A stretch of DNA of 45,293 bases, taken from Candidatus Wirthbacteria bacterium (lineage in GTDB: Bacteria > Patescibacteriota > CG2-30-54-11). The position numbers and the translations under genes were made by a program. The stretch is taken from NCBI GenBank assembly GCA_903889905.1, contig CAISZI010000050.1:1-45293 (forward strand), in the 5' to 3' direction. This document shows, one piece after another, positions 13,337-45,293 of this stretch (position 1 is its first letter; the number at the start of each line of letters is the position of its first letter). Under the pieces are notes generated by a model. That model searched no databases. It saw nothing but the letters and a program-made list of their open reading frames with translations, and had not been told where the DNA came from.

Positions 13337-13769
13337 AGCGAAAGATTCATATTCCACAAAGGAAATTGTCGAGCTTCTCGCAGTACATGCCAAAACAGCC
13401 CAGAACTGGCTACGTGATGAAACTCTAGCAAAAATTGAAGGAATTTACCCTCCAGTTGTTCGAGGAATTGATCTTAAAGAATTCCTGACAAAAAGGATCT
13501 TAAAGTCAAAAGTGACTTTGGCTAATGATGAATTCTATTGTCCCCACTGTAAGGGAGCTCGGAAAAGTAGAATTATTACCATCGAGAGTAACGGCATAAT
13601 ACTAGGCAAAGATCATCAAAAAATTACAATTAAAGGGAAATGTGAAATCTGTATGACGCAACTAAACAGATTTGACACTCAGGACAACTACAATCTCAGG
13701 CAGCAAGAACCCATAAGTCAGGACAAACATGCATTAGAAGCACGCCAGCAGCTTAATTTATTTGGGTAA
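13302..13769 (+). CDS. HTH plus zinc-ribbon partner of the tyrosine recombinase
   Basis: A 155-residue protein with an N-terminal helix-turn-helix of the excisionase type (YSTKEIVELLAVHAKTAQNW). It continues into a winged-like segment (GIDLKEFLTKR) and a C-terminal zinc ribbon (CPHC near residue 85, CEIC near 118). The start at 13302 is chosen over 13281 and 13299 because AAGG lies 8 bases before it. Proteins with this layout commonly precede integrases of the kind found just downstream, so it probably directs or regulates that recombinase. The pairing is from my knowledge of similar loci; the regulatory role is inferred. Confidence 0.75.
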   Translation: MSKRKHNLRLIKAKDSYSTKEIVELLAVHAKTAQNWLRDETLAKIEGIYPPVVRGIDLKEFLTKRILKSKVTLANDEFYCPHCKGARKSRIITIESNGIILGKDHQKITIKGKCEICMTQLNRFDTQDNYNLRQQEPISQDKHALEARQQLNLFG

Positions 13770-13775
13770 ATGGCC

Positions 13776-13826
13776 GGAGTGAAGCAAGGTATTAAGTATG
13801 TACTAATATCCCTGCTCTAACACTCC
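13776..13826. promoter_or_regulatory. 51-base nested inverted repeat between HTH partner and recombinase
   Basis: GGAGTG (13776-13781) pairs with CACTCC (13821-13826), AGCA with TGCT, and the inner TATTA with TAATA around a loop near 13795-13803. It starts 7 bases after the HTH gene and ends 31 bases before the recombinase ATG. It could be a binding site, an RNA hairpin controlling the recombinase, or a recombination site. No T-run follows, so it is not a standard terminator. Confidence 0.6.
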
Positions 13827-13856
13827 TTTCCAATCACCATTAGTAAGGAGAATATC

Positions 13857-14957: not shown

Positions 14958-14971
14958 TTAGTCAAAATCCT

Positions 14972-15029
14972 GTGCTATATTCCCTGTAGTGTTTGATAAT
15001 GTTTAGTAAAGTAATTGAAAAGGGTAACT
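14972..15029 (+). promoter_or_regulatory. Likely extended -10 promoter of the restriction module
   Basis: TGCTATATT in the 72-base gap after the recombinase is an extended -10 (TGnTATAAT-like). It is followed by AAAAGGG about 6 bases before ATG 15030. No good -35 is visible, as is common with extended -10 promoters. It would drive the Mrr-like, MerR-like, R-M, small-protein and serine recombinase genes, all of which are tightly packed. Confidence 0.45.
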
Positions 15030-15908
15030 ATGTCCCGCTCACAGGATTTGGCAGCAAAAGTTATCTTCGCAGCGATGCAGATACTCAAAGAAAATGGCGG
15101 GGAATTACCAGGCAAAGAAGTCATCGCCCAAGTTGAACAAAAAGTGGATTTTGACCAATGGGCAAAAGAAAAATACGAAAAAACAGGCTATATCCGCTGG
15201 CAATCGATACTACACTTCCACACAATCGGTTGCATCAAAGGCGGATACCTAATTAAAAGGAAGGGCGTCTGGTATTTAACACCAGAGGGGGAAAAGGCAT
15301 TAGAAAAAGGAGAAGCAACTTTTTTTGCTTTGACGAGACAAGCATATGCCGAATGGAACAAGCAACATCAACAGGAACCAACCGAATCGATAGTAGATCA
15401 TGTTGAAAGTGAAGAAGAGCAAAAGATTACCCTAGATGAGGCAGAACAAGTAGCCTATGAAGGATTGAAACAACATGTTCGGGAGATGAACCCATATGAA
15501 TTCCAGGAATTAGTAGCTGCCCTCCTGAGAGGTATGGGGTACTACACTCCATTTGTAGCCCCCAGAGGTCGTGACGGTGGGGTTGATATTATCGCCTATC
15601 GAGATCCCCTCGGCACTATCCCCCCACGTATTAAAGTACAGATCAAACACCGCCAGGACGCCGCAGCCGTTGATGAAATCAGAAACCTAATGGGTATTTT
15701 GCAACAAGACGATGTAGGAATTTTTGTATCAAGTGGTGGTTTTACTTCTGATTCAAAGACTACGGCAAGACAAGCTCATGTTCACGTTGAATTGATAGAT
15801 TTTACAAGGTTTCTTCAGCTTTGGCGTGAATTCTACAACAAACTGACTGATGAAGATAAAAGTCTGCTTCCCCTATACCCTATCTACTTTTTAGCACCAG
15901 TTGAATAA
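15030..15908 (+). CDS. Mrr-family restriction endonuclease-like protein
   Basis: A 292-residue protein with an N-terminal winged-helix domain (about residues 1-95, as in Mrr_N) and a C-terminal PD-(D/E)XK nuclease domain. The nuclease part begins at MNPYEFQELVAALLRGMGYY. The core RGRDGGVDIIAYRD provides the catalytic Asp and VQIKH holds the Lys strand, where many members have QCK. GIFVSSGGFTSDS follows, as expected. Mrr enzymes cut modified (often methylated) DNA and may thus act as a type IV restriction enzyme. ATG 15030 is chosen over TTG 15015 because AAAAGGG precedes it. The next gene overlaps its stop by one base, so the module is co-transcribed. Confidence 0.85.
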   Translation: MSRSQDLAAKVIFAAMQILKENGGELPGKEVIAQVEQKVDFDQWAKEKYEKTGYIRWQSILHFHTIGCIKGGYLIKRKGVWYLTPEGEKALEKGEATFFALTRQAYAEWNKQHQQEPTESIVDHVESEEEQKITLDEAEQVAYEGLKQHVREMNPYEFQELVAALLRGMGYYTPFVAPRGRDGGVDIIAYRDPLGTIPPRIKVQIKHRQDAAAVDEIRNLMGILQQDDVGIFVSSGGFTSDSKTTARQAHVHVELIDFTRFLQLWREFYNKLTDEDKSLLPLYPIYFLAPVE

Positions 15909-16093
15909 TGGCAACCTTAAAAGACTACCTTACGATCAAAGAAGTGGCGGAATTGCTCAACATGTCTCCAAGCACGCTTAGACTTTGGGACAAACAAGGC
16001 AAGCTCAAAGCTACGCGCCATCCGCTCAACAACTATCGGTTATATAAAAAAGCCGATATCGAAAAGCTCATCAATGCAATTACCAAGGCCTAA
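15908..16093 (+). CDS. MerR-type/excisionase-like DNA-binding protein
   Basis: A 61-residue single-domain winged HTH: LTIKEVAELLNMSPSTLRLW, followed by RHPLNNYRLYKKADIEKL, the standard MerR N-terminal pattern without any effector domain. It starts at the last base of the nuclease gene (overlap TAATG) and ends 1 base before the R-M enzyme ATG. Small regulators of this type often sit directly before type ISP-like R-M genes, so control of the R-M genes is likely. An excisionase role for the element is an alternative. Confidence 0.85.
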   Translation: MATLKDYLTIKEVAELLNMSPSTLRLWDKQGKLKATRHPLNNYRLYKKADIEKLINAITKA

Positions 16094-16094
16094 A

Positions 16095-19000
16095 ATGTCA
16101 CGACAACTTATCGAAAATTACCTAAGAGAAGTTGAAAACATCAAGCAATACGGTGGGGAAAAAGCCCAGAATGAGGGATCTCTGGAAGTTGCCGTGATGA
16201 ACTTAATCCGTGGTTATTGCCAGTCCAGACACTATATTCTTGTACCAAAACTAGCATACAAGGCTGATCGCATAATACCAGACGGAACCATAAAGAATGC
16301 CCTTCGTCTCGATTGCGGATACTGGGAAAGTAAGGATAAGTATGACGACCTCGACACCGAGATCCAAAAAAAAATTGAAGCGGGCTACCCAACAGACAAT
16401 ATTCTCTTTGAGGACAAGGAAACAGCCATTCTAATTCAGAATGGCAAGGAAGTTCTACGGGTTAAGTTCCAGGACGAAGAAAAACTAAACACTATCCTGA
16501 ATACTTTCGTAAATTATGAACGTATAGAGATTACCGAATTTAATCAAGCTCTCGAACAATTCAAACATGACTTACCTGCAATCCTGGATGCTTTGCGAGA
16601 TGTTCTTGATGAACAGGGGGCATCAAACCAGAATTATCAGAAATCCAGGGATGGTTTTTTAGAGCTGTGTAAAAAAGCCATCAATCCGACCATCACGCTT
16701 CTCGACATCCGAGAAATGATCATCCAGCATATCCTGACCGAAGATTTATTCATGAGCGTATTTGACGAGACCCAATTCCATCGAGAGAACTCAATTGCCC
16801 ATGAATTGTCGCATATCGTCGACACATTTTTTAGCCATGAAGTAAAACGAAATACTCTAGATCGCATCCAGCATTACTACAAAACCATCAAATCAAGAGC
16901 CTCTCAGATTGCCGACCATCATGAGAAACAACACTTTTTGAAGGTGCTTTATGAAAATTTTTACAAAGCCTATAACCCCGATAAAGCTGATAGGCTAGGG
17001 GTAATCTACACACCCAATGAAATAGTGCGGTTCATGATTGAGGGGACAGAGCACCTCCTGCAAAAGCATTTCAACAGACTCCTCAGTGACCCAAATGTTG
17101 AGATACTCGACCCTGCTACAGGTACAGGCACATACATCACGGAAATCATCGACTATCTGCCGACCCCCAAGCTCGAATACAAGTACAAAAACGAGCTACA
17201 CTGCAATGAAGTCGAGATTCTGCCTTACTACTTAGCCAATCTCAATATCGAATTCACGTATCGCCAGAAGATGGGAAAATACGAAGAATTTCCTAGTGCC
17301 TGCTTCGTGGATACTCTCGACAATATCAATTTTGACTACAAAGGCAAACAACAGGACTTTTTCTTCAACCTAGGCGATCAGAACCTGGAACGCATCAAGC
17401 GACAGAACAGCAAGAAAATATCCGTTATCATCGGCAATCCGCCATATAACGCCAATCAGCAGAATGAAAACGACAACAACAAAAATAGGGATTACTTCAA
17501 TGATCAAAAACGTAAAATAGGCGGTGTGGATGGTAGAATCAGGCAAACCTATATAAAAGAAAGCACTGCTCAGAAGACTAAAGTAACCGATATGTATGCC
17601 AAGTTCTATCGTTGGGCGAGCGATAGGCTAGATGATAACGGAGTGATCGCCTTTATTACCAATCGATCATTCATTAATAGTAGATCGTTTGACGGATTTA
17701 GGGCATGTATCGAAAAGGAATTTGCATTTGCCTATATCATCGATACCAAGAGCGATGTTCGGGCAAATCCCAAGATCACTGGAACTACACACAATGTGTT
17801 CGGGATACAGACTGGAGTGGCAGTGATGTTCTTGGTTAAGAAAAAAAACGAACAGAACCAATGCCAAATTCAATACTTCACTCTGAGGGATGAACAGAAA
17901 CGTGAAGAAAAACTAGAATGGTTTGCGAATAATCATATTAGGTCAATCCCTTTCGACCACGTCACGCCAGACACGAAGCACAACTGGATTAACATGGCCG
18001 ATAATGATTTTGATGAATTGCTTCCCTTAACTAGTAAACAAACGAAATTTTCAAAGTCGGCAAGTGGAGAGAACGCTTTATTTAAAGTTTTTTCGAATGG
18101 AATCAATACAGCAAGAGATGGTTGGATGATCGATTTCTCCAGCAAACAATTAGTGAAAAAGGTCACCTGGTTTATTCAAGTGTATGAAAATGAAAAACAA
18201 AACACCCATATCAAGTGGTCAAGAAACCTCAAAAATCGTTATCGTCAAAGTCTTAAAGAACCCTATAGGTCATCAAGAATTGTAGAATATTTTTATCGTC
18301 CATTCGTAAAAAAATATATTTACAAATCCGACATTTTTATTGATGAGCTGGGACTTGATAAACAATTATGTATCAGTCCAAAGAATGCGGCTATTTGCCT
18401 CCGTCATGTATCCAGTTCAACAGACTTCATGACTATCGTTTCGCCAATAAGTGTGGATTGGCATTTTCTCGGTGATACAGCATATTTCACCTTAAATCGT
18501 TTTGACTCAGCGGGTCATAGAATTGACAATATTACAGAATGGGGATTGCAACAATTCCAAAAAAAATACAGCTCTATTCAGATTACTAAAACGGATATCT
18601 TTCAATATGTTTATGCAATTTTGCATCATCCTTTATACCTGGACAAATATAAAGTTAATCTCAGAAGAGATCTCCCTCGAATCCCTTTGTATGACAATTT
18701 CTCGCAGTGGGCAAAATGGGGACAAGAATTGATGAATTTGCATATCAATTTTGAAACAGCGAAACCATTCAGATTAAAACGAGTGGATCTTAAAACGGAC
18801 AATTCAGACAAAAAGCCAAAACCGAAGCTGAAAGCAGATAAGGCATCCGGTGAGATCATCCTCGACGAAAATACAAGTTTAACCGGTATCCCAGCGGAAG
18901 CGTGGGAGTATCGCCTGGGTAATCGTTCAGCTCTGGAATGGATCCTTGATCAGTACAAAGAAAAAAAGCCAAAAGATCCAACAATACGGGAAAAGTTCAA

Positions 19001-19130
19001 TACCTATTGCTTTGCTGACTACAAAGAACAGGTAATCGATCTACTACAAAGGGTTACAACAGTAAGCGTTGAAACATTAAAAATCATAAGGGAAATGGAA
19101 ATCATTAACGATGGAGTTGCCAATGATTGA
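16095..19130 (+). CDS. Single-chain restriction-modification enzyme (type IIG/ISP-like)
   Basis: A 1011-residue enzyme with an apparent nuclease, methylase and specificity part in one chain. Near residues 60-85, IIPDGTIK and RLDCGYWESKD give a PD-(D/E)XK-type site (Asp 73, Glu 78, Lys 80), followed by the DDLDTEIQKK and GYPTDNILFED landmarks of this family. The N6-adenine methylase has AdoMet motif I DPATGTGTY near residue 339 and catalytic motif IV NPPY near residue 448. The C-terminal half matches the ISP-type target-recognition region, ending in YRLGNRSALEWILDQY. There is no RecA-like helicase between nuclease and methylase, unlike classic type ISP enzymes. ATG 16095 follows the MerR gene directly; an in-frame ATG at 16074 lies inside that gene and is less likely. 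It probably protects the element's host from foreign DNA. Confidence 0.88.
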   Translation: MSRQLIENYLREVENIKQYGGEKAQNEGSLEVAVMNLIRGYCQSRHYILVPKLAYKADRIIPDGTIKNALRLDCGYWESKDKYDDLDTEIQKKIEAGYPTDNILFEDKETAILIQNGKEVLRVKFQDEEKLNTILNTFVNYERIEITEFNQALEQFKHDLPAILDALRDVLDEQGASNQNYQKSRDGFLELCKKAINPTITLLDIREMIIQHILTEDLFMSVFDETQFHRENSIAHELSHIVDTFFSHEVKRNTLDRIQHYYKTIKSRASQIADHHEKQHFLKVLYENFYKAYNPDKADRLGVIYTPNEIVRFMIEGTEHLLQKHFNRLLSDPNVEILDPATGTGTYITEIIDYLPTPKLEYKYKNELHCNEVEILPYYLANLNIEFTYRQKMGKYEEFPSACFVDTLDNINFDYKGKQQDFFFNLGDQNLERIKRQNSKKISVIIGNPPYNANQQNENDNNKNRDYFNDQKRKIGGVDGRIRQTYIKESTAQKTKVTDMYAKFYRWASDRLDDNGVIAFITNRSFINSRSFDGFRACIEKEFAFAYIIDTKSDVRANPKITGTTHNVFGIQTGVAVMFLVKKKNEQNQCQIQYFTLRDEQKREEKLEWFANNHIRSIPFDHVTPDTKHNWINMADNDFDELLPLTSKQTKFSKSASGENALFKVFSNGINTARDGWMIDFSSKQLVKKVTWFIQVYENEKQNTHIKWSRNLKNRYRQSLKEPYRSSRIVEYFYRPFVKKYIYKSDIFIDELGLDKQLCISPKNAAICLRHVSSSTDFMTIVSPISVDWHFLGDTAYFTLNRFDSAGHRIDNITEWGLQQFQKKYSSIQITKTDIFQYVYAILHHPLYLDKYKVNLRRDLPRIPLYDNFSQWAKWGQELMNLHINFETAKPFRLKRVDLKTDNSDKKPKPKLKADKASGEIILDENTSLTGIPAEAWEYRLGNRSALEWILDQYKEKKPKDPTIREKFNTYCFADYKEQVIDLLQRVTTVSVETLKIIREMEIINDGVAND

Positions 19131-19395
19131 GTTAAAACTCACGGAAACTCAGTTTAAAAACCTTTTTGACACATTTACGATTGGCGCAATCGCCAAATGG
19201 TATTGGAATGACATTCAGAATATTGCACAAAAGCCAGATGAAGAAATGACAATTTTTATGCAAAGATTAGCCGCACTACACTATCCTGAGACAGTAGCAA
19301 AAAGTGAACAACATGATATTGCATACAATGCTGACTACCATGACAAGATGCAGGACATTTTGATTGCTGCTATCGATTACATGCTTAATCAGTGA
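19123..19395 (+). CDS. Small protein of unknown function after the R-M enzyme (90 aa)
   Basis: ATG 19123 is supported by GGAG 6 bases upstream and overlaps the R-M stop by 8 bases. The product is helical, acidic and Trp/Tyr-containing (TIGAIAKWYWNDIQNIAQ, ILIAAIDYMLNQ) with no recognised motif. Coupled translation with the R-M gene suggests a partner or inhibitor of it. Its stop (TGA) overlaps a GTG start of the recombinase. Confidence 0.65.
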   Translation: MIELKLTETQFKNLFDTFTIGAIAKWYWNDIQNIAQKPDEEMTIFMQRLAALHYPETVAKSEQHDIAYNADYHDKMQDILIAAIDYMLNQ

Positions 19396-20975
19396 TTGCA
19401 ATGCATAATCCTCTAAAATACTTTATTTACGCCCGTAAATCTTCCGAACCAGACGAGAAGCAGATGCTTTCGATCCAATCTCAACTTTTCGAAACCCAAG
19501 AAAAAATCATTACTCCTTTAGGCGTTGAAATAGTTGACACGATCACTGAGTCACACAGCGCCAAAGCCCCTGGCAGACCCGCATTTGATCACATGATTGA
19601 ACGCATCAAAGCAGGTGAGGCAAACGGCATCATTGCTTGGCATCCTAACAGGCTCTCCCGCAACTCAATTGATGCAGGACAGCTAATCTATATGCTTGAT
19701 ACCAAAGAGTTACTTGACCTTAAATTTTGCTCATACACGTTTGAAAACACCCCAGAAGGCAAGTTTTTCCTTAATATGATGTTTACCCAGGGCAAATACG
19801 ACGTCGACAAACTCTCAGTAGACGTCCTCAGAGGCTTTAGAACCAAACTCAGGGATAAAGGTCAGCTCATCACCAGAGCACCTATCGGTTATCTGAACGC
19901 TGGGACGGAAAAAGGCAATAAACATGCCATTGTTGACCCTGAACGATTCCCCGTTATACGCAGACTTTGGGATTTGATGTTGTCAGGGAACCATTCTGTT
20001 GGCGATATTGTTGATATCGCCAATAATGAATGGGGTTTCCTGACGCGTAAGACTAAAAAGAGAGGTGGAAGCCCACTTGCAGAAGGCACCCTCAATAAAA
20101 TGTTTCACAACGCATTCTATTGTGGCCTTTTGACCTATAATGGCCAAGAATATAGCGGCACACATACTCCAATGGTTACGAAAGAGGAATTTAACCATGT
20201 CCAGGACTTATTGCATGGCAGAAGCTCTCCTCGTCGCCAAAAACACGTATACGCCCTAACAGGACTGATCCGCTGCAAAGAATGCGGAAGCATGTTTACA
20301 GCCTCTCCCCGCCGCAACAGGCATGGCAAGCTCTACGACCACTATCATTGCACAAGGAAGAATAAGGCCGTCGAATGCCATCAGAGCGTCCTACAGAAAC
20401 ATATACTGGAGACCCAAATAATAAACGAGCTCAAAACGCTCACTTTTGACCAAGAATGGCTTGACTGGGCCATCAATGAGATCGAGCACCGAAAGCCCCA
20501 GGAAGAAGCCCAAATTGACTCTACAGAAGCTTCCATGCAGAAAAAACTTGAAGCTCTGGAAAGCGAGAAAAGAAATTATGTCCGTATGAAAGCTAAAGAA
20601 CAAATTAGCGAGGAAGATTTTGTTTCTGAAGTCAATCGTGTCACTAAAGAACTTGACCAGATTAAAAGTAAACAACAAACAAAAAAACGTCCCTGGGAAG
20701 AGACGTTGGAGCTTTCAGCCAAAACATTTAATTTCTCGTTTTATGCCTCTCTGTGGTTCCTAAATGGGATCAACAACGACAAACGGGCCATTTTCAACGC
20801 AATTGGTTTGAACCCTCAGATCTTCAATAAAGAACTAGACTTTGAGGTCAAAGAGCCCTTTTATACTTTCAAAACTGGTCTGGAAAGAATCAAAAGGTTT
20901 GAACCCTTGGGTTCTGGCGTTATACCAAACAAAAAAGACGCCGAAGCGTCTCTTTATCAACTATGGGGTGACTGA
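19392..20975 (+). CDS. Large serine recombinase (integrase of the element)
   Basis: A 527-residue large serine recombinase. The resolvase domain (about 1-150) has the nucleophile Ser in YARKSSEPDEK and the conserved RLSRNSIDAG. The recombinase domain follows (GYLN..AIVDPERFPVIRRLWDL), then a zinc ribbon (IRCKECGSMF and YHCTR) and a coiled coil about residues 345-430. It starts at GTG 19392 (overlapping the previous stop) or ATG 19401. Its last four codons and stop (L W G D stop) lie in the CCA end and acceptor stem of tRNA-His, so the reading frame crosses the attachment core. In the excised circle the frame would continue past the core for 26 other residues before a TAA. It very probably integrates and excises this element. 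Confidence 0.92.
   Translation: MIAMHNPLKYFIYARKSSEPDEKQMLSIQSQLFETQEKIITPLGVEIVDTITESHSAKAPGRPAFDHMIERIKAGEANGIIAWHPNRLSRNSIDAGQLIYMLDTKELLDLKFCSYTFENTPEGKFFLNMMFTQGKYDVDKLSVDVLRGFRTKLRDKGQLITRAPIGYLNAGTEKGNKHAIVDPERFPVIRRLWDLMLSGNHSVGDIVDIANNEWGFLTRKTKKRGGSPLAEGTLNKMFHNAFYCGLLTYNGQEYSGTHTPMVTKEEFNHVQDLLHGRSSPRRQKHVYALTGLIRCKECGSMFTASPRRNRHGKLYDHYHCTRKNKAVECHQSVLQKHILETQIINELKTLTFDQEWLDWAINEIEHRKPQEEAQIDSTEASMQKKLEALESEKRNYVRMKAKEQISEEDFVSEVNRVTKELDQIKSKQQTKKRPWEETLELSAKTFNFSFYASLWFLNGINNDKRAIFNAIGLNPQIFNKELDFEVKEPFYTFKTGLERIKRFEPLGSGVIPNKKDAEASLYQLWGD
20931..20951 (-). terminator. Minus-strand terminator for tRNA-His inside the recombinase gene
   Basis: On the minus strand AGACGC-TTCG-GCGTCT is a perfect 6-bp hairpin with a UUCG tetraloop, followed by six T. 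It begins 13 bases beyond the CCA of tRNA-His, so it can end the tRNA transcript. It lies wholly within the last codons of the serine recombinase (K K D A E A S), so the same bases serve both purposes. Confidence 0.8.
20964..20969 (+). other. Proposed right attachment core (TGGGGT) at the CCA end of tRNA-His
   Basis: TGGGGT overlaps the complement of the CCA end, discriminator base and first acceptor pairs of tRNA-His. It matches the left core at 7878-7883. Upstream is element DNA, downstream the chromosomal tRNA gene. Confidence 0.55.
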
Positions 20976-34868: not shown

Positions 34869-36929
34869 ATGCAACATATGACCTCCAAAGCCATTCGCCA
34901 GGCTTTCCTGGATTTCTTTGTCAAAAACGACCACCAGTACTACGCTGGCTGCTCGCTCGTTTCCCCCGACCCATCGCTGCTCTTTACCTCGGCCGGCATG
35001 GTACAGCTCGTGCCGTTTCTCAAGGCCGAACAAAAGCCACCCTACCCGCGGCTGGTCAATTACCAAAAATCCTTCCGCACCGGCGACATCAATGACATCG
35101 GCAGCGATGGCCGGCACCTGACTTTTTTTGAAATGCTCGGCCAATGGTCCATTGGCGATTACTACAAGGAACGTGCCATTGAACTGGCTTATGATTTACT
35201 CGTCAATGTTTATGGTTTTGATCCCAATCTGATGTATGCTTCGGTCTTTGCTGGCAACGAACAACTCCCGAAGGATAAAGACTCGATCCAAGGTTGGCTC
35301 AAGGTTGGCATTCCACGCGAAAGAATCATCGAGCTAGGCTACAGCGACAACTTTTGGATCGCCGGCCAGACTGGCCCATGCGGGCCGTGCACCGAAGTTT
35401 ATTACGACATGGGCACCGATGTGGATCCCAACGCCAAACCCGGCACCAACAACGACCGCTTTATTGAAATCTGGAATGCCGGCGTGTTCATGGAATACTT
35501 CAAAGACGAATACGGCAATTTCAACGCACTACCTCAGAAAAATGTCGATACCGGCGCCGGCCTCGAACGGCTTGCCGCCTTTATGCAGGGCAAAAAAAAC
35601 GTCTTTGATATCGACTTGTTTCGGCCGCTCGTGGACCTGATCAGCCTGACACTCAAAGTGGATTACGACCATGATCCCAAAGCCACCAAGGCGGTTCGTA
35701 TCATTGCTGACCACATCCGCGCTTCTACCTTTCTGGTGGGTGACGGCGTCAAACCTTCTAATGTACAGCGTGGCTATGTACTGCGCCGCCTGCTGCGTCG
35801 GGCCATTGCACAAGCTCGACTGATGGGCAATCAGGAACCGATCCTTGCGCGCTTTGTGAGTGAAGTGATCGACACCTATCAGGACGTTTATCCCGAACTC
35901 GACCAGAACCGCGCCCGTATCGTTGGTATCATTGAAGAAGAAGAAAAAGCCTTTGCCAAAACGTTGAATCAAGGCTTGCGGGAACTCGACAAAATTCTGG
36001 CAGCGAATCCCAAAGCCATCAGTGGTGACGATGCCTTCAAACTGCATGACACCTACGGCTTCCCCATTGACCTGACACGGGAATTTGCCGAGGAAAAAGG
36101 CATTGCAGTGGACATTGCCGGCTTTGACAAAGAATTGCAGAAACAAAAAGACCGCTCTCGCATTGGTAGTGGCTTTACGCTCGGCAAGACCATGGAAAAG
36201 GATTACGCAGAGACGCCGCTTTCGACCTTTGTTGGCTACGAGACATTAAGCACGCAAGCCAAAGTTGTCCAACTGAGTGTGATTGACGACGAAGCGCAAC
36301 TCGTGCTGGACCAAACTTCATTCTACGGCGAAGGTGGTGGCCAGACCGGTGACAAAGGCGAAATTGTTGGCCCAAACGGTAAGCTGACCGTGACGACAAC
36401 CAAGAAAACCAAACGCGGCGTGTTTGTGCACGTTGGCAAGCTCGCCGGAACGATAGCCGAAGGCGAGAGTGTAACCGCGACCGTCGACGAAATGAGCCGC
36501 AAACAGATCATGCGTTACCATACTGCCACACACTTACTCCACAAAGCACTGCGCGACACATTGGGCCCGCTAGTTCAACAAAAAGGTTCCTCGATCACCG
36601 CCGACCGACTGCGCTTTGACTTCAACTTTGACCGGCCGCTCACGGCCGAAGAGATTGTCAGGATTGAACAGATCGTCACCGACCTAATACGCAAGGATCT
36701 GCCGGTTGTGGTACAATATATGCCTTTGGCCCGGGCCAAAGAAAGCGGCGCCATGGCGCTGTTCGAAGGAAAATACGACCAGGAAGTGCGCGTGCTGGAC
36801 ATAGGTAGCGGTATCAGCCGCGAGCTTTGCGGTGGAACACACGTGACCCACACCGGCGAGATCGGCCAGATCAAAATCGACAAACAGGAATCCGTGGGCG
36901 GCGGGATACGCAGAATCAAGGCAGTGTAA
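34869..36929 (+). CDS. alaS: Alanyl-tRNA synthetase without the C-terminal region
   Basis: Charges tRNA-Ala. The 686-residue chain has the catalytic domain (LFTSAGMVQLVPFL, RLVNYQKSFRTGDINDIG, THLTFFEMLG-type sequence, GPCGPCTEVYYD, DTGAGLERLA). The editing domain follows, with HTATHLLHKALRDTLG near residue 555 and CGGTHVTHTGEIG near 658. It ends at GGGIRRIKAV, directly after the editing domain. The oligomerising and C-Ala parts present in most bacteria (about 870 residues) are missing, as is common in Patescibacteria. An AGGAC ribosome site precedes ATG 34869. A strong terminator follows 32 bases after the stop. Confidence 0.95.
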   Translation: MQHMTSKAIRQAFLDFFVKNDHQYYAGCSLVSPDPSLLFTSAGMVQLVPFLKAEQKPPYPRLVNYQKSFRTGDINDIGSDGRHLTFFEMLGQWSIGDYYKERAIELAYDLLVNVYGFDPNLMYASVFAGNEQLPKDKDSIQGWLKVGIPRERIIELGYSDNFWIAGQTGPCGPCTEVYYDMGTDVDPNAKPGTNNDRFIEIWNAGVFMEYFKDEYGNFNALPQKNVDTGAGLERLAAFMQGKKNVFDIDLFRPLVDLISLTLKVDYDHDPKATKAVRIIADHIRASTFLVGDGVKPSNVQRGYVLRRLLRRAIAQARLMGNQEPILARFVSEVIDTYQDVYPELDQNRARIVGIIEEEEKAFAKTLNQGLRELDKILAANPKAISGDDAFKLHDTYGFPIDLTREFAEEKGIAVDIAGFDKELQKQKDRSRIGSGFTLGKTMEKDYAETPLSTFVGYETLSTQAKVVQLSVIDDEAQLVLDQTSFYGEGGGQTGDKGEIVGPNGKLTVTTTKKTKRGVFVHVGKLAGTIAEGESVTATVDEMSRKQIMRYHTATHLLHKALRDTLGPLVQQKGSSITADRLRFDFNFDRPLTAEEIVRIEQIVTDLIRKDLPVVVQYMPLARAKESGAMALFEGKYDQEVRVLDIGSGISRELCGGTHVTHTGEIGQIKIDKQESVGGGIRRIKAV

Positions 36930-37012: not shown

Positions 37013-39247
37013 TTGGCCAAGCACCATCATCCCGACAAATACGAAAAGACATGGCAGCACACTGTCGAACAGCCCAAAAAACCGTTACCACAGTTAATTA
37101 ACGCGCACGACTTAAATCCCCAACAATATGACTTGGCAAAATTAAATTTACGTTATTTTCCAAAGGAAATTCACGAAGGTGTCGGGCATTTGCTCGAAAG
37201 GACAGGCGGTCATGAGGAAATCTGCCTCTGCGTTAATTTGGGTCTGATGATCGTAGCTGATATCCAATTAACACCCGAAATCCTGAACAAAGAAATCATC
37301 CCTCGTGCTGGTCATGGCCATGTGCTAGAGAGGGCAGATTTTGAGGATCTCGATATAACCCTGAAAGATTTTATCTCTCTGGTTGAAAAATGTTCCGACT
37401 TGTTCCTGAGTTACCTCAAACGCCTTAAATTGCCTGAGGTGATTAAACAGTTACCTGTCGAGTTTGGCCCGCCCGGCGCCATCTACAGTGCAAAAAAAAG
37501 AGACAGGGCTCGACGGTTAGAATTAGACAAAAAAATGAAAAAAGGGAAACACCCACAACCCGCTGCTGACAGACCCTTTGGTCAAGAATCAATACCCATC
37601 CAAACCGCCAGACAATCACGCAAACAAGAACGCTTCCAGCGTCAAACCGAACAGGACCCCATTGCCAAGGATTTAGGGGATCCGCTTGTACGGCGTGACG
37701 ACCTTTCCACAACTGCTGTTGTCCGTTCCGGACCGATTTTGACCGGAATAGCAACCAAGGAAGCAATCGGTCTGCTGGAAAACGCCGCAACAGTTGCAGC
37801 ACTCGGCCTATCCGGAGACTCCACCTCCGACCCTGTCCTGGAGCGCGAAAAACTACCGTCTCACCGGGACAAATACACTATCGGGCGTAAGCTCCTCCAT
37901 CGCCGTGACCATGTCCAGCCCCACGACAATGCCCTTCAAGTAGCAATTTCGCAGTTAGACCTTCACCTCAAGGACCAACCCAACTATCCCAAAGAATTTG
38001 AAATCTTCGACGCTGTGCGCAATGACTCTCCCACGATGGCCCTGTCGCCATATACCAATTTGATGCTGCAATCTATTTTGGAACTGGTGGAAATGGGAAT
38101 GGATTTCCGGGACGTAATTGCCTGGGAGTTGGCTTGCGGGCGTGGGTATGCCGCTATTCTGCTTGCCAAACTCAAAGCCAAGGTCATCAGCACCGACTTC
38201 TTTCGTGAATGTACCGAAGCAACAAAAGCCAATGCGGCAGCAAATGGTATCAACGTGCTGTCTGAGTTCCCGAGTCACGAGACAAAAAATCGGGGAATCT
38301 ACATTAGTCAAAGTGACATGCTGGAGCTGGCCATGGCAACCCAGAATCCTGACAGCAAAGCCGCAACCGCACTGACTGAACTGATTTTCATGACCACCAA
38401 CCTGCCGCAGGTACGAGAACAAGACCACCCCCGCATCCGTGATAAAGCGCGAAGAAGTGACGCCGCCGTTATTGACGCGACGCTGAATGCGCGGCATGAC
38501 CACCATATCAACAGAAACCGCGCCCAAGGGACAATGAATCCTGCCCTGCTCCCGGCCATCCGAAGACGCGAAGGCGTTACCCCAGACACCCACGAACACA
38601 CGCTGCACGAGATCGACATGAGCGGAACAACTGTCAGGCAAGGAATATATGGTGCCGGCCAGAATGGCAGGCAATTTGTCAAAAAAGCCATGCATGATTA
38701 TCGTTACTGCACCGAACCGGGGAGCATCTTGACAATCATTTTCAGTAGCATGAGCGACTTGAATGCCTATTTTGAACTGGCCGAGCTTCAAGGTTATAAC
38801 GCTTCCATCCTTTGTGCTCAGGAACTGGAAATCCGTCCGCTCTATCGGCAGGCTTCCGGCGTTGACATCAATGCCAGTTATCATCACACCTTTGCCGACT
38901 ACCTGCGTGAATGTGAAGCTGACGAATCGCCCAAGGTTCCGCTGGTTTTCAAAAAAGGGAATCAGGATACGGAACTGATCATGAGTGCCGCCTTAGTCCC
39001 GAGCAAAGAATGGTACACTTTTTTAGCACAATTCCGTCGTTCAGATAAAAAATTAATCCTTCCGCCGGAATCGATCGACCTCATCTGGAACGATCATGAA
39101 GCATGGTCCGATTTCATTGCGCAGGAAACAAATGGCGAGCTGGCTAAACTGACTAGTGACAAAGACGAGGTCATTCGTCTGGCTCGCCTATTTCTCGAAG
39201 GTGATTTTCGATCATGGCAAAGTACCACTGCGTCAAATAAATCATAG
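37013..39247 (+). CDS. Large protein with a degenerate class I methyltransferase domain
   Basis: A 744-residue protein I cannot name. The first about 150 residues (YDLAKLNLRYFPKEIHEGVG, ICLCVNLGLMIVADIQLTP) are folded but unfamiliar. A basic, Gln/Arg-rich linker of about 100 residues follows. Near residue 365, DVIAWELACGRGYAAILLAK reads as AdoMet-binding motif I, with KVISTDFF as motif II and FMTTNLPQ near 460 in the place of the HemK-type NPPY. A later block (PGSILTIIFSSMSDLNAYFE) fits the end of a Rossmann methylase. The only start is TTG 37013, 22 bases after a terminator, with a weak ribosome site; the next ATG is too far in. It precedes the asparaginase cluster and may be expressed with it. 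Confidence 0.65.
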   Translation: MAKHHHPDKYEKTWQHTVEQPKKPLPQLINAHDLNPQQYDLAKLNLRYFPKEIHEGVGHLLERTGGHEEICLCVNLGLMIVADIQLTPEILNKEIIPRAGHGHVLERADFEDLDITLKDFISLVEKCSDLFLSYLKRLKLPEVIKQLPVEFGPPGAIYSAKKRDRARRLELDKKMKKGKHPQPAADRPFGQESIPIQTARQSRKQERFQRQTEQDPIAKDLGDPLVRRDDLSTTAVVRSGPILTGIATKEAIGLLENAATVAALGLSGDSTSDPVLEREKLPSHRDKYTIGRKLLHRRDHVQPHDNALQVAISQLDLHLKDQPNYPKEFEIFDAVRNDSPTMALSPYTNLMLQSILELVEMGMDFRDVIAWELACGRGYAAILLAKLKAKVISTDFFRECTEATKANAAANGINVLSEFPSHETKNRGIYISQSDMLELAMATQNPDSKAATALTELIFMTTNLPQVREQDHPRIRDKARRSDAAVIDATLNARHDHHINRNRAQGTMNPALLPAIRRREGVTPDTHEHTLHEIDMSGTTVRQGIYGAGQNGRQFVKKAMHDYRYCTEPGSILTIIFSSMSDLNAYFELAELQGYNASILCAQELEIRPLYRQASGVDINASYHHTFADYLRECEADESPKVPLVFKKGNQDTELIMSAALVPSKEWYTFLAQFRRSDKKLILPPESIDLIWNDHEAWSDFIAQETNGELAKLTSDKDEVIRLARLFLEGDFRSWQSTTASNKS

Positions 39248-39328: not shown

Positions 39329-40342
39329 ATGTCCAAACCCAAAATCCTGATCATCTCGATGGGCGGCACCATCACTGGCAAAATGTTGGCCAAAGGCTCG
39401 ATCGCCTCCGGACAGTACGGGGCTGAAGAATTCCTGCGCGTGGCCCCCGAACTCCGCCAGGTTGCCGAGATGCACACGCTGGAACTGATAAACCTCGATT
39501 CCGTCGACATGCTGCCCGAGAACTGGCTGCAACTGGCTGACACTATCCAAACAAATATCTCCAAATTTGACGGCATTGTGGTCACACACGGGTTGGACAC
39601 ACTGCAGTACACCGCCACCGCCATTGCCTTCATGATGCAGGACCTTCCGATTCCGGTTGTCTTTACCGGGGCGCAACTGCCGATCCATTTTGTCGCTTCC
39701 GACGCCCGCCAGAACATTGTCGCCGCTGTCCAGGTTGCGGCCCAGTGCGATCTCGGCGAAGTCTGTGTCGTAAGCGATAACCTGATCCATCGCGCAGTAC
39801 GCTGCCGCCGGCTCAAGGCTATTGAAACCGATGCTTTCAGCAGCCTGGGTATCAATCCGCTGGGCACCGTCCGCCATCAGATCGAAATGCGCGGTCATCA
39901 ACAAAAAAGGAACACCGGCAGGCACAAATATGTCTTCAACCCTAGCCTCGACACCAAAGTTGCCGCGATCACGCTGACGCCTGGATTTGACCCCGAGCTC
40001 ATCAATGTATACCTGGAGCGCAACTACCGGGCCTTGCTGCTCATCGGTTTTGGCTTAGGCTATGTTCCGACGCACAACCGTTTCTCACTAATCAAAGCCA
40101 TCCAAGTGGCGACCGAACGCGGCGTGCCGGTGATCGTGGCGAGCCAGGCTAACTTCGGCCACTATGAAATGGAATTTTACGAAGTTGGTTCGCAACTGAA
40201 GCAAGCCGGGGCGATCTCGGCGAGGGATATGCTTTGGGAAACAGCCTTTGTCAAATTAATGTGGATTCTGGGCCAAACCCAGGATTATGCTGGTATCGTC
40301 AAACTTTTCCAAAAAAACTATGTCATGGAAATGGTGGTTTAA
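39329..40342 (+). CDS. L-asparaginase-family protein, paralogue 1 of 4
   Basis: A 337-residue type I asparaginase/GatD-fold protein. It has the first catalytic Thr in SMGGTIT (Thr 14), a Ser/Asp loop NLDSVDMLPENW, and VVTHGLDTLQYTA near residue 85. Further landmarks are TGAQLPIHFVASDARQN near 110 and the C-terminal domain with ITLTPGFDPELI. In asparaginases the second motif is HGTDT, where Thr-Asp is part of the catalytic set; here the Thr is Leu (residue 89), while Asp 90 remains. The later catalytic-Lys region reads HRAVRCRRLKA. ATG 39329 has GAGGA 8 bases upstream, better than ATG 39314. Activity on asparagine should not be assumed. Confidence 0.85.
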   Translation: MSKPKILIISMGGTITGKMLAKGSIASGQYGAEEFLRVAPELRQVAEMHTLELINLDSVDMLPENWLQLADTIQTNISKFDGIVVTHGLDTLQYTATAIAFMMQDLPIPVVFTGAQLPIHFVASDARQNIVAAVQVAAQCDLGEVCVVSDNLIHRAVRCRRLKAIETDAFSSLGINPLGTVRHQIEMRGHQQKRNTGRHKYVFNPSLDTKVAAITLTPGFDPELINVYLERNYRALLLIGFGLGYVPTHNRFSLIKAIQVATERGVPVIVASQANFGHYEMEFYEVGSQLKQAGAISARDMLWETAFVKLMWILGQTQDYAGIVKLFQKNYVMEMVV

Positions 40343-40381
40343 CGGCTACCGTCCGACAAATTCATTAACGAAAGTTGCCCC

Positions 40382-41500
40382 ATGACATCATCCCGGACCA
40401 GGTCCACAAAAAAAGTTCTGCTGTTATCAACCGGTGGCACCATTACCGCCAAAGAAATGAAACACAACACCTTGCATGCTGATATTTTCGACAAGCCAAG
40501 ACTGCTTAAGGCCATACCGGACCTGGAGCAAATCGCCCAAATCGACATGCTTGAACTGATGCGGGTCGATTCTGTCAATATGACACCCAGCGACTGGGTC
40601 AAAATCGGAACTGCCATCAATGACAACATCAATGCTTATGACGGCATTGTCGTCCTGCACGGACTCGACACCTTACCCTATACTGCCTCGGCGTTGTCAT
40701 TTATGTTCCGCAACCTGCCCATTCCGATCGTCCTGACTGGCTCAACGGCTCCGCTCGAGTATGTTTCCTCAGATGGCAAGCGTAATTTGATCGATGCGAT
40801 TCAGGTCGCTGCATTGTCGGACCTGGCCGAAGTCTGCGTGGTGAGCGATGGACACATTTTTCGTGGCAACCGCATCAAAAAAGTCGAAGAAGTTGATTTT
40901 TGCACTTTCCAAAGCATCATCGTGCCGCCGCTTGGATTGATTAAAGGGAACCCGATCCTCTCCAATGGTTACCACAAACGAAACCCCAAAAAGAAATTGG
41001 TCTTTGACCCACGTTTTGAGACCGATGTTGTCGCCCTCATCACCTATCCGGGATTTAATCCCAGGATTTTGGACCACATTCTCACCCTCAACCCCAAAGG
41101 CCTTGTGCTGGTCGGCTATGGATCGGGCTGTGTGCCTGTGGATGGTGAACATTCCATTCTGCCCCAAATCCGTAAATTCAACCAACAGCAAGGCCATATC
41201 GTTGTGACTACGCAGGTCACTTTTGGTCAATGCTATATGTCGATGCACGAAGTTGGCAGATTAGCCTTGGAGGCTGGTGCTTTTTCGGCACTGGATATGA
41301 CGTACGAGACGACCATTGTCAAACTGATGTGGGCTCTCGGCCGTAGTAGCAATAAGGAAAAGGTGCTGAAAATAATGCAAACCAATTACGCCGGCGAAAT
41401 CACACCCGACATTATGGAGGGTGGTGAAGACAGGTTTCATCAGTACCTCAGTTACGCGGATTATGTCTCGGAAAACACCTCCTCAAAAACAGAAGACTAA
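40382..41500 (+). CDS. L-asparaginase-family protein, paralogue 2 of 4
   Basis: A 372-residue paralogue starting 39 bases after the first. It keeps STGGTIT (Thr 20), RVDSVNMTPSDW, and VVLHGLDTLPYTASALSFMF with Leu 95-Asp 96 in place of Thr-Asp. FRGNRIKKVEEVDF near residue 160 retains the Lys expected in the catalytic set. A C-terminal tail of about 30 acidic residues (GGEDRFHQYLSYADYVSENT) is extra compared with the neighbours. The gene has only a weak ribosome site (GAAAG), so coupling to the first gene is likely. Confidence 0.85.
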   Translation: MTSSRTRSTKKVLLLSTGGTITAKEMKHNTLHADIFDKPRLLKAIPDLEQIAQIDMLELMRVDSVNMTPSDWVKIGTAINDNINAYDGIVVLHGLDTLPYTASALSFMFRNLPIPIVLTGSTAPLEYVSSDGKRNLIDAIQVAALSDLAEVCVVSDGHIFRGNRIKKVEEVDFCTFQSIIVPPLGLIKGNPILSNGYHKRNPKKKLVFDPRFETDVVALITYPGFNPRILDHILTLNPKGLVLVGYGSGCVPVDGEHSILPQIRKFNQQQGHIVVTTQVTFGQCYMSMHEVGRLALEAGAFSALDMTYETTIVKLMWALGRSSNKEKVLKIMQTNYAGEITPDIMEGGEDRFHQYLSYADYVSENTSSKTED

Positions 41501-41521
41501 TTCTAAGGTAAATCATGCATC

Positions 41522-43219
41522 ATGAACACGGCTTCTCCTGCGTTAGAAAATACATTCGAACTCGAGTCCCCTGAATCTCATCTGTCCAGAGCACTGATTA
41601 CTATCTATGGCAGACAAAACGTGGAAGCATCCATTTACAGTGTCTGGGGAGATGCTGTGAGTGATAATCCTATTGTTTTTTTGGAAAGAAAACTTCAAGA
41701 CATACGACCCAAAACAGATATTAGCTACATACACGGTGGTGGATCGATTATTTCAGAAACAACGAATACAACTGGAGCACGTGATTACAAATCTGCTACT
41801 TTAGGTTTCACCTTAGTGCACAAACTGGTTCAAGATCTTCTATCCGAACGGTTTACAACAGATACCGATCGCAGCGTTACAGATGCGTTACATGAATTAA
41901 TCGGACAATTAGAAATCATTCGGCCGGAGATTGCTTATGAAGGGGGTAGCGAAGAACTTGACGAGGCAATTGTTGAAGAGACTTTTATACCGAAGATAAC
42001 CAGACAACTGGATGACGGTCGAGTCAAAGTAATCATGCTGACAATGGGAACGGATCAAATGGTTGATGTGGCTCAATACATCAAACAATATTTTTCAAAA
42101 CGACCCCATAAAAATAATAATAAAAGAAAAAAACACGCCAGTGATCCGACTTTCCGTTCGCTGAATAAACCAATCATCATTACGGGCGCTAACTTTGGTT
42201 GGAACGAAACGGAATCCGATGGACCCATGAATGTGGCCTTGGCAGCAATTTGGGCTCGGCTGCCGAGTTTGCCCAATGATGTCTTCATCGCCTTTGGTGG
42301 TCGGATTATCCCTGCCCGTAATGCCGTCGAAGCTCCCAGCGATTCTTTTGAACCCGGCCTTAAACTCATTGATACTCGTAACGCTCAAGAAACTGCTTAC
42401 GCCAATGCTTATCGTAATCTTGCAGCTACCCAGACCAACAATATTATCGAGGCTGCAACTCGTTTAAAATTACCCAAAACCAGCCAAACGTTGCTAACCG
42501 AATTCACGATAAGAGAACGACTTCGACTTTCGAGACCAAATACAATTCCTGCTCAGGAACAGGCTATTGCCGATCCAGACAGAATTTGCACGCAAGTGAT
42601 CCATTTTGACTTGCATCCACTCTCAACCACCAATGATGCGCTCAAACCCTTACTTGAGACCGAGAATGCCCCGGTCCCATCTATTATTATTATTGAAACG
42701 CATCATTGCAGCTCCTTGCGCAGAGGCTTCCTCGAAGATATCGGAAAATTGACCTCTCTGGGACATGTGGTTGTGGTTATTCCACATACCGGCGAAAGAC
42801 GAACAATGCTGGATTATAAATCCACGGAAGCCATTTTGTACAAGGGCGGAATCCCAGGACTGGGGGTTGACGTGGAGTCACTCAAGGTTAAATCATTGTA
42901 TGCCTTGGACTATCTGAGACATATAAAAAGTAAAAGAGAAAACGACCATTTACCCCCGCTTACATTAAAAGAACAACAACGCATTATGATTGATGTTCTG
43001 TACTATGATTTCGCCGGAGAAATGCATCTCAGCGAAAATTTAACTGGAGCATTGTCGCCTGACAAACGGATTAAAATAGATAAGATTTTGGAAGGGTACA
43101 TTTCGAGTCTCTGCGGTCCACCTTTCCTTCATCCACTATTAACCGCGAACAGGGCTCATGTTCTCAGAACCCGCCCTGCATTAGACGGCCTTTTTGAAAG
43201 ACAGCAAAACAAGCATTAG
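41522..43219 (+). CDS. Divergent asparaginase-like protein, paralogue 3 of 4 (565 aa)
   Basis: Not obvious at first sight, but the order of asparaginase motifs is there: SYIHGGGSII near residue 67 (the GGTI position), VIMLTMGTDQMVDVAQYI near 173 (the HGTDTM position, with Thr 177-Asp 178 kept), IIITGANFGWNETESDGPMN near 222, VFIAFGGRIIPARNAVE near 258, and a C-terminal domain IIIIETHHCSSLRRGFLEDI then VVVVIPHTGE. It is about 200 residues longer than the neighbours, with inserts between the first two motifs and in the linker. It is A+T-richer and less conserved-looking. It lies inside the cluster in the same orientation, so it is probably an ancient paralogue with a changed role. Confidence 0.75.
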   Translation: MNTASPALENTFELESPESHLSRALITIYGRQNVEASIYSVWGDAVSDNPIVFLERKLQDIRPKTDISYIHGGGSIISETTNTTGARDYKSATLGFTLVHKLVQDLLSERFTTDTDRSVTDALHELIGQLEIIRPEIAYEGGSEELDEAIVEETFIPKITRQLDDGRVKVIMLTMGTDQMVDVAQYIKQYFSKRPHKNNNKRKKHASDPTFRSLNKPIIITGANFGWNETESDGPMNVALAAIWARLPSLPNDVFIAFGGRIIPARNAVEAPSDSFEPGLKLIDTRNAQETAYANAYRNLAATQTNNIIEAATRLKLPKTSQTLLTEFTIRERLRLSRPNTIPAQEQAIADPDRICTQVIHFDLHPLSTTNDALKPLLETENAPVPSIIIIETHHCSSLRRGFLEDIGKLTSLGHVVVVIPHTGERRTMLDYKSTEAILYKGGIPGLGVDVESLKVKSLYALDYLRHIKSKRENDHLPPLTLKEQQRIMIDVLYYDFAGEMHLSENLTGALSPDKRIKIDKILEGYISSLCGPPFLHPLLTANRAHVLRTRPALDGLFERQQNKH

Positions 43220-43279
43220 ACATCAATCAACTGCTCGTTTATACTCAATTCAATTCGATCCTAATTCGAGGAACTATTA

Positions 43280-44320
43280 ATGTCCCTCCCCAAAATTCTG
43301 GTCGTGACGACCGGCGGCAGCATCAGCAACGAAGGCGATAATGCCAAATCCTTTGGTGCAGTGCGTTACAACGCGCCCAACCTGCTCAAGCTGATCCCGG
43401 AAATCAGACAAATCGCCACCATCGAACTGATGGACATGATGAGCCTGGACTCCATTGACATCCTGCCCGAAGATTGGCTGATGCTGGCTGAGTATCTGCA
43501 CGACAATATCAACCGTTACGATGGCATTGTCGTCACCCATGGTCTGGATACCATGACCTACACCGCCTCAGCAATCGCCTTTATGCTCCAAAACCTGCCC
43601 ATCCCGATTGTTTTTGCCGGTATTTACAAGCCATTATCCGAATCATCGTTTGATGCCCGCAACAACTTCGTGGCCGCGCTCAAAGTTGCCGCCCAGGCGG
43701 ATCTCGCTGAAGTTTGCATCGTCAATGACCACAAGATTCACCGTCCAGCACTGACTAGATTACTGCGTGCCACTGATGCCCGCGCCTATACCACGATTGG
43801 CGTCCCGCATCTGGCTGAAATCAGTGATACCTTTCACTTCAACTTTCCCGTCAACCCACGCGGCAAACGCAAAGTCAAATTCACTCCGACGCTGGACGCC
43901 CATGTTGGCCTGATCGTGGTTCATCCAGGCTTTGATCCCGACATCATCAGCCAGTATCGTGACCACAATTACCGTGGCTTTCTCATCCTCGCCTATGGTT
44001 CCGGCTGCGTCCCAAGCCACAGCCGTTATTCCTTGCTCCCAGCCATCAAAGCGGCCACTGACGACGGTATACCTGTACTGGTTACCAGTCTGGCAGCTTT
44101 GGGCGGCGCAGTCACTGTGCGCGCTGACCTGGAGAAAAAACTGACCGCCTCAGGTGCCACCCTGATCCCCAACATGCTCTGGGAAACCGCCTGGGTCAAA
44201 CTGATGTGGGCACTGGGGCAAACGAGTGACTATGCCAAGGTTTTGAACCTGATCAACACCAACTTTGTTCACGAAATCACCAACCCGGCCGACGCGTCGG
44301 ACAAGATCAGTGTGGACTAA
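43280..44320 (+). CDS. L-asparaginase-family protein, paralogue 4 of 4
   Basis: A 346-residue paralogue with GAGGA 9 bases before ATG 43280. The first motif is VTTGGSIS, so Ser 14 replaces the catalytic Thr. The second is VVTHGLDTMTYTASAIAFML with Leu 89-Asp 90. FAGIYKPLSESSFDARNN follows where TGAxRP..SDG is usual. The C-terminal domain has IVVHPGFDPDIISQY and GSGCVPSHSRYS. The catalytic-Lys region (HRPALTRLLRATD) shows no clear Lys. With two or three catalytic positions altered it may not be a normal asparaginase. It ends the cluster, 87 bases before the FtsA/PilM-like gene. Confidence 0.85.
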   Translation: MSLPKILVVTTGGSISNEGDNAKSFGAVRYNAPNLLKLIPEIRQIATIELMDMMSLDSIDILPEDWLMLAEYLHDNINRYDGIVVTHGLDTMTYTASAIAFMLQNLPIPIVFAGIYKPLSESSFDARNNFVAALKVAAQADLAEVCIVNDHKIHRPALTRLLRATDARAYTTIGVPHLAEISDTFHFNFPVNPRGKRKVKFTPTLDAHVGLIVVHPGFDPDIISQYRDHNYRGFLILAYGSGCVPSHSRYSLLPAIKAATDDGIPVLVTSLAALGGAVTVRADLEKKLTASGATLIPNMLWETAWVKLMWALGQTSDYAKVLNLINTNFVHEITNPADASDKISVD

Positions 44321-44406: not shown

Positions 44407-45293
44407 ATGTACAAAACCAACCCCATGCCTATTTTCGACAAAATCAAAAAAGCCTTTGTTCCCAACCTTTCGGTCGCAGATTACTGCCTCTCGCTGGATG
44501 TGGGCACGGAATTTGTCAAAGCATTGATTTTCAAAAACACCAATGGCAAAGCCCAAGTCGTGGGTGTCGGACGGTTTAAACAGGGACTCGAAGACATGCA
44601 GTCCGGCATGGTGACGGACATCGATGGTGTCGTCAAAAACTGCCGCGAAGCCATTGGCCAGGCCGAAGACCAGGCGGGCGTCTCACCGGATCAGGTGATC
44701 ATCGGCATTGCTGGAGAACTGGTCAAAGGCGCTTCCACCATCGTCAAATACGACCGCGCCAAACCGACGACCAAAATTGAAATGAAGGAACTGGAAGAAA
44801 TTGTCCAAAAAGTCCAGTGGCAGGCCTTTGACGAAGTACGCAAACAGCTCGCTGCCGAAACCGGTTACCAGGAAATTGAAGTCAAACTCGTCAATGCCGC
44901 AGTCGTGGACGTCCAGATCGATGGTTACCGTGTCAACAACCCGATCGGTTTTCAAGGCAAACGCGTTAGTGTCTCGATTTTTAACTCGTTTGCACCGCTG
45001 GTGCATCTCGGTGCGCTTCAAACCATTGCCGAAGAACTCGACCTGGACCTGCTCAGCATTGCCACCGAACCATATGCCGTGGCGCTCTCAGTCGGCAGCC
45101 AGGAAGCCGGCGAATTCAGCTCTATCTTTATCGACATTGGTGGTGGCACCAGCGACATTGCGCTCGTCCGCAACGGCGGCGTCAGCGGTACCAAGATGTT
45201 TAACCTGGGCGGCCGCGCCTTTACCAAACGCCTCAGCAGCCATTTCAACATCCCCTTCGACCGCGCCGAACAGATGAAACTCGATTACGCCAA
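44407..45293 (+). CDS. FtsA/PilM-like actin-fold protein, cut by the window end
   Basis: The frame is open to the last base, giving at least 295 residues. YCLSLDVGTEFVKALIF is the phosphate-1 motif. IIGIAGELVKG, an inserted SHS2-like segment (EMKELEEIVQKVQWQAFDEV onward), then FIDIGGGTSDIALVRNGGVS (phosphate-2) and LGGRAFTKRLSSHFNIPF follow, the order of FtsA and PilM. FtsA links FtsZ to the membrane; PilM belongs to type IV pilus assembly. The part seen cannot decide between them. ATG 44407 or ATG 44425 (MPIFDKIKKAF) may be the start; neither has a strong ribosome site. Confidence 0.85.
   Translation, partial: MYKTNPMPIFDKIKKAFVPNLSVADYCLSLDVGTEFVKALIFKNTNGKAQVVGVGRFKQGLEDMQSGMVTDIDGVVKNCREAIGQAEDQAGVSPDQVIIGIAGELVKGASTIVKYDRAKPTTKIEMKELEEIVQKVQWQAFDEVRKQLAAETGYQEIEVKLVNAAVVDVQIDGYRVNNPIGFQGKRVSVSIFNSFAPLVHLGALQTIAEELDLDLLSIATEPYAVALSVGSQEAGEFSSIFIDIGGGTSDIALVRNGGVSGTKMFNLGGRAFTKRLSSHFNIPFDRAEQMKLDYA

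Follow-up and report, generated by a model that had tools for sequence, protein, structure and literature searches.

Among described proteins, those reported here can be compared with the type I cytoplasmic L-asparaginases (AnsA; TIGR00519, PF00710 plus PF17763) and with GatD, the ammonia-producing subunit of the archaeal Glu-tRNA(Gln) amidotransferase, which requires amidase activity. The accepted catalytic set of the type I asparaginases consists of Thr, Tyr, Thr, Asp, and Lys. In the type-1 enzymes, the Tyr is contributed by the second subunit of the intimate dimer, and in the accepted mechanism the Thr89-Lys162 pair protonates the leaving NH2 group and activates the second water (PMC8256714).

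Published mutants at the second Thr and Lys positions show a 10^3- to 10^5-fold loss of activity. The T100V mutation of PGA, at the position occupied by Leu in the proteins described below, gives a kcat with Asn of 0.0061 vs 31 s-1, K173M gives a kcat of 0.00028 s-1, and the T100V plus K173M double mutant has no measurable activity (PMC7567106). The equivalent yeast mutants T141A and K215A lose 99.9% of the activity (PMC5099943). The E. coli asparaginase II mutants T89V and T89V,K162T (4eca, 6pa3, 6pa8) bind Asp/Asn without normal turnover. According to their titles, 6pa3 and 6pa8 contain the double mutant in complex with L-Asn, and thus, such an altered site can still hold a ligand.

Here, we describe a cluster of four consecutive genes, named w1 to w4, from a Candidatus Wirthbacteria bacterium (Patescibacteriota). 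They are located in the analysed stretch of 45,293 nt (assembly GCA_903889905.1, contig CAISZI010000050.1), hereafter the window. The cluster is a variant within the known asparaginase fold family.

Organization of the cluster

The four ORFs are intact and co-oriented, with 39, 21, and 60 nt between successive ORFs (Table 1). The first-pass annotation, which had described them as asparaginase-family genes with altered catalytic residues, is confirmed. A scan for promoters and terminators returned counts at about chance level.

Table 1. Coordinates of the w1-w4 cluster and of the genes that border it in the window.
Feature	Position	Strand	Length (aa)	Description
alaS	34869-36929	+		Left syntenic border; alanyl-tRNA synthetase by translation; syntenic with alaS of the sister genus (G001)
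744-aa protein	37013-39247	+	744	Divergent Rossmann methyltransferase core; directly upstream of w1; weak methyltransferase-family matches
w1	39329-40342	+	337	Type-I asparaginase-fold paralogue; intact ORF
w2	40382-41500	+	372	Paralogue; orthologue of the single sister-genus gene L012; intact ORF
w3	41522-43219	+	565	Divergent asparaginase-like protein; extra N- and C-terminal segments; intact ORF
w4	43280-44320	+	346	Paralogue; sister of w1; intact ORF
pilM-like ATPase gene	44428-45293	+		Right syntenic border; runs off the window; 67-73% identical in the sister genus (G001) and in a third genus (G002)

The 744-aa methyltransferase-like protein has a syntenic counterpart in the sister genus, a methyltransferase-like protein of 587 aa (pair comparison E 3e-4). 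Its gene is the sole other constant companion of the asparaginase-like gene(s) in both genera, which ties it to the cluster through guilt by association only. PADLOC matched this protein weakly to a MADS methyltransferase model and to nothing else, and a known defence system was discarded for the cluster, as the same search matched none of w1-w4. Elsewhere in the window there is a mobile-element-like region (13281-20975) that encodes a phage integrase, an Mrr-type endonuclease, a type ISP/IIG restriction-methyltransferase (1018 aa), and a serine recombinase. There is also a 632-aa protein (10701-12599) whose recognised part is a C-terminal sigma-70 region 4 domain only.

Fold of the encoded proteins

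The PF00710 and PF17763 profiles span w1, w2, and w4 end to end (PF00710 E 5e-55, 9e-56, and 2e-46, respectively). In the whole genome, PF00710 matches five genes, the fifth being a canonical copy that lies on a different contig from w1-w4. Against the TIGR00519 cut-off of 260.5 bits, w1 (291) and w2 (273) score above and w4 (235) and w3 (21) below. Structure prediction of the single proteins with AlphaFold2 gave a confident asparaginase fold for w1 (mean pLDDT 94.7, pTM 0.93), whose best match among solved structures is GatD 2d6f (Z 44.9, 328 residues, 1.8 A, 36% identity). GatD 1zq1 (Z 43.8), which is the nearest solved structure by sequence too, and archaeal type-I asparaginases follow. The fold of w1 is predicted to be undamaged.

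Although GatD provides the nearest solved structures by fold and sequence, the cluster proteins differ from GatD in three features, namely the N-terminal extension, the equivalog score, and the gatE partner. They lack the N-terminal GatD domain, so that the match begins at profile position 60-62; the score is 276 bits vs an equivalog cut-off of 324; and no gatE-like gene was found among the neighbouring genes read, the genome using gatC-gatA-gatB. In addition, the catalytic Thr-Lys pair is lost here.

The canonical copy lies in a gatC-gatA-asparaginase-gatB arrangement (L133:5934-10422, contig C51 of this genome), immediately preceded by a glutamine synthetase-like ORF. It encodes a fully canonical type-I asparaginase with HGTDT and the Lys kept. 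The gatA-asparaginase-gatB order is also found in the sister genus (L132), and in the third genus gatA directly adjoins gatB (L155). The arrangement is reminiscent of archaeal GatD providing ammonia to GatE. Since a canonical asparaginase is encoded elsewhere in the genome, the w1-w4 set was free to diverge.

The w3 protein, which had been called a barely recognisable relative that keeps Thr-Asp, matches PF00710 as a fragment only (residues 210-276, E 3e-12). Using hhalign, the asparaginase profile covers both domains (residues 168-463, probability 96.3, E 1.7e-9) and places MGTDQM on the HGTDT motif, in line with that description. Its AlphaFold2 model is poor (pLDDT 58.9) and the alignment input was biased towards asparaginases, and therefore the structural match adds little to the sequence evidence. 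A search of 359 further genomes from the phylum gave no relative of w3, whose G+C content (43.8%) is below that of the neighbouring genes (49-54%). The w3 gene may have a different origin from its neighbours.

Loss of catalytic residues

To survey the catalytic positions, w1, w2, w4, and L012 were aligned with 51 canonical relatives. The HGLDT motif that had been noticed in three paralogues is found at residues 87-91 of w1, 88-92 of w2, and at the equivalent place of w4. The canonical relatives have Thr (48) or Ser (3) at the second catalytic position, and w1, w2, w4, and L012 have Leu, which, judging from this alignment, is not there by chance.

The losses go further, and the five-residue set is incomplete in each of w1-w4. 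In the order Thr, Tyr, Thr, Asp, Lys, the w1 protein shows T14, Y284, L89, D90, and R161, and w2 shows T15, H284, L90, D91, and K162, the Lys being kept. In w4, which reads GGSIS, the Ser for the first Thr seen in the first pass is S14, and Ala, Leu, Asp, and Leu follow; L012 has Thr, His, Leu, Asp, and Arg. The w3 protein has Ser at the nucleophile position, keeps Thr and Asp, and lacks the Lys. Therefore, the nucleophile Thr has become Ser in two of the four cluster proteins (w3 and w4), and the Lys, invariant in all 51 canonical relatives, is absent in three of the four (w1, w3, and w4) and in L012. The C-terminal Tyr, equally invariant (51/51), is replaced in w2, w4, and L012; this column (w1:284) is presumed to be the partner-supplied Tyr because it is invariant and falls within the C-terminal domain. 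Gln116 (50/51) is gone in w2, w4, and L012. The damage exceeds the Leu substitution reported earlier.

The Asp-Ser pair that contacts the ligand alpha-carboxylate (Ser60 in EcAI) is kept in w1, w2, w4, and L012. The clade also has invariants of its own (Ser2, Ile, Val, Phe, and Thr) at sites without a known catalytic role, and F149 is changed to Ser/Asn. In short, the proteins resemble AnsA in the two-domain fold throughout, in the Asp-Ser pair, in the catalytic Asp, and, for w1 and w2, in the nucleophile Thr. They differ from it in the Leu that replaces the second Thr, in the loss of Lys, Tyr, and Gln in most of them, and in the score of w4 under the TIGR00519 cut-off. Compared by alignment with the mutants described above, w1, w4, and L012 are natural counterparts of the double mutant, whereas w2 corresponds to the single mutant and has lost the Tyr as well. 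The same residues are altered, but the E. coli proteins are engineered type II enzymes, whereas these are natural, have Leu and not Val, and carry further losses.

A second natural lineage with altered catalytic residues is found in the same phylum. It is a conserved single-copy asparaginase-like family (f63, L103-L117, about 15 genomes) with GGSIGM/GGSIG and HGTNT motifs. In contrast to the cluster, its changes are nucleophile Thr to Ser and Asp to Asn, not Thr to Leu, and it forms a separate branch of the tree. Another phylum genome (G372) contains a more degenerate asparaginase-like ORF (L122) with HDFDN replacing HGTDT.

Distribution, phylogeny, and selection

Among 379 genomes of the phylum, the HGLDT motif was found in three. 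This genome has three such genes, the sister genus, which belongs to the same family, has one, and the remote genome G009 also has one; motifs were read in the 30 best-matching loci and in the loci of one further search. When 84,980 GTDB species were scanned with a pattern that catches HGLDT, it was absent from the best 80 of at least 591 confirmed relatives. The idea that the Leu is a normal feature of an active subfamily was discarded, as neither the 51 canonical relatives nor these best 80 GTDB loci have it and the readable viral relatives show HGTDT.

This genome and the sister genus share the order leuS, GH15-like, yajQ, two rodZ-like genes, alaS, methyltransferase-like, asparaginase(s), and pilM. 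The four-gene set itself is not conserved in the two related genera. The alaS-pilM interval of the sister genus contains one HGLDT gene (L012) and a small further ORF, and the third genus of the same family (87% complete) has no PF00710 match genome-wide. In the latter, the contig end past alaS and the contig end before pilM share sequence and carry a different ORF. The sister-genus relative is single-copy, but it reads HGLDT and not HGTDT, so that neither of the observations named in the first pass as refuting its proposal (Leu as a normal residue of an active subfamily, or relatives with only single HGTDT copies) was made. Because it is an orthologue of the gene at 40382 (w2) at the same alaS-pilM site, and the third genus has none, the Leu predates the four-gene expansion. 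The class is sampled by three genomes, one 68% and one 87% complete, and the clade and the synteny are shared by one relative outside this genome, i.e., conservation is seen in two genera only.

The tree agrees with this order of events. The w1, w2, w4, and L012 genes form a clade (support 98/93) in which L012 groups with w2 (46% identical, 100/99) and w1 with w4 (100/98). A recent tandem duplication within this genome was rejected, since a w1+w2+w4 clade excluding the sister-genus gene gave an AU p of 0.0017, and the AU test (p 0.026) was also against the HGLDT genes being close copies of the canonical asparaginase of the family. The distant HGLDT protein of G009 (L007, L130:9468-10529), which has Gly at the nucleophile position and lacks the Lys, is placed elsewhere in the tree, and its HGLDT possibly arose independently; a single HGLDT clade including it was not rejected (AU p 0.091). 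This gene adjoins two small ORFs that by eye resemble a HEPN/nucleotidyltransferase pair.

The Leu codon is different in all five HGLDT genes (TTG in w1, CTC in w2, CTG in w4, CTT in L012, and TTA in L007), and therefore the Leu looks maintained by selection. Differences per codon position 1/2/3 are 0.46, 0.30, and 0.69 between w2 and L012, vs 0.37, 0.25, and 0.62 for the canonical pair of the same two genomes. Third-position changes outnumber second-position changes by about 2:1, which indicates protein-level constraint on the genes; synonymous sites look near saturation. In the tree, the path between w2 and L012 is 1.33, vs 0.89 for the canonical pair, which amounts to a 1.5-fold faster divergence. 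The genes evolve somewhat faster than the canonical pair, yet they are still constrained coding sequence.

Possible functions of the cluster

The first-pass proposal of a new function instead of redundant asparagine breakdown stands in part. A function other than redundant breakdown is favoured because the Leu is real, ancestral to the clade, maintained, and absent from the active subfamilies seen; the new reaction proposed there is a candidate function. We think it fairly probable that the cluster arose as a lineage-restricted expansion of pseudo-asparaginases, non-hydrolytic proteins that probably bind a ligand or have a regulatory role. The proteins have the marks of pseudoenzymes, i.e., a conserved fold, lost essential residues, and retention by selection, and their inactivity is predicted from that of the homologue mutants. 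A type-I asparaginase-fold gene, ancestral to the set and now found between alaS and pilM, would have exchanged its second catalytic Thr for Leu and then duplicated into a w2 lineage and a w1/w4 lineage. These would later have lost the catalytic Lys and the Tyr that the partner supplies, and w4 its Thr nucleophile too. The proteins, which keep part of the ligand pocket, including the Asp-Ser pair, and the catalytic Asp, should attain a normal fold and probably a normal dimer, and they would hydrolyse asparagine at trace rates at most. Most likely, they would bind a ligand resembling Asn, Asp, or Gln and serve as a sensor or as a regulatory/structural subunit, possibly in homo- or hetero-oligomers of the cluster proteins. 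We infer the ligand binding from few conserved residues, and the oligomer make-up is putative; w2, keeping Thr, Asp, and Lys, could still have a slow or changed activity.

The same residues could also belong to changed enzymes (w1, w2, and the sister gene) that still form an acyl-enzyme, either with a substrate whose leaving group can do without a proton from Thr-Lys (ester, thioester, or lactone) or with another acyl acceptor (amide transfer). These three proteins keep the nucleophile Thr and the Asp, w1 also the Tyr, and the loss of Thr-Lys fits a changed leaving group because this pair protonates the leaving NH2. However, w3 and w4 lack the Thr nucleophile, no conserved new catalytic residue was found in the alignment of the HGLDT clade, and the Lys, Tyr, and Gln losses vary between paralogues, which looks relaxed and not redesigned, making this reading unlikely. 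The genes might also be weakly active but ordinary asparaginases, or decaying duplicates without a function of their own. The faster divergence of w2 and L012 is expected under relaxed constraint, and the third genus lost or never had the locus, but the frames are intact past >50% amino-acid divergence and the Leu is kept with differing codons in all copies, so that we give this reading a rather low probability.

The early idea of hetero-oligomers sharing catalytic residues is not upheld. A hetero-oligomeric asparaginase, with four proteins complementing each other's missing residues, would suit four linked genes and a type-1 active site at the intimate-dimer interface, where w1, with its Tyr, could complement w2, which keeps Thr, Asp, and Lys. 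The Tyr is, however, the single residue that the partner supplies (PMC8256714). The nucleophile, second Thr, Asp, and Lys all belong to the same chain, and because each of the four proteins lacks at least one of them, a complete site is out of reach for any combination. Moreover, the sister genus keeps its single HGLDT gene without such a partner at the locus, and we consider this asparaginase very improbable. It is likewise a long shot that w1-w4 assemble into a hetero-oligomer that binds amides without hydrolysing them and works with the adjacent methyltransferase-like protein, for example by presenting an Asn/Gln-type amide for N-methylation or by gating the methyltransferase in response to free Asn/Gln. 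If so, the asparaginase fold would have turned into a sensor or substrate-presenting module.

For the pseudo-asparaginases that we favour, the interest lies in natural asparaginases without the Thr-Lys pair at a conserved site, which are a test of what the fold can do without hydrolysis. They also test the use of the second Thr and the Lys in the still debated mechanism of the type-1 enzymes. Should Asn or a related metabolite prove to be their ligand, a drug-enzyme scaffold would have given rise to a new class of sensors, in a group of bacteria whose biochemistry has hardly been studied.
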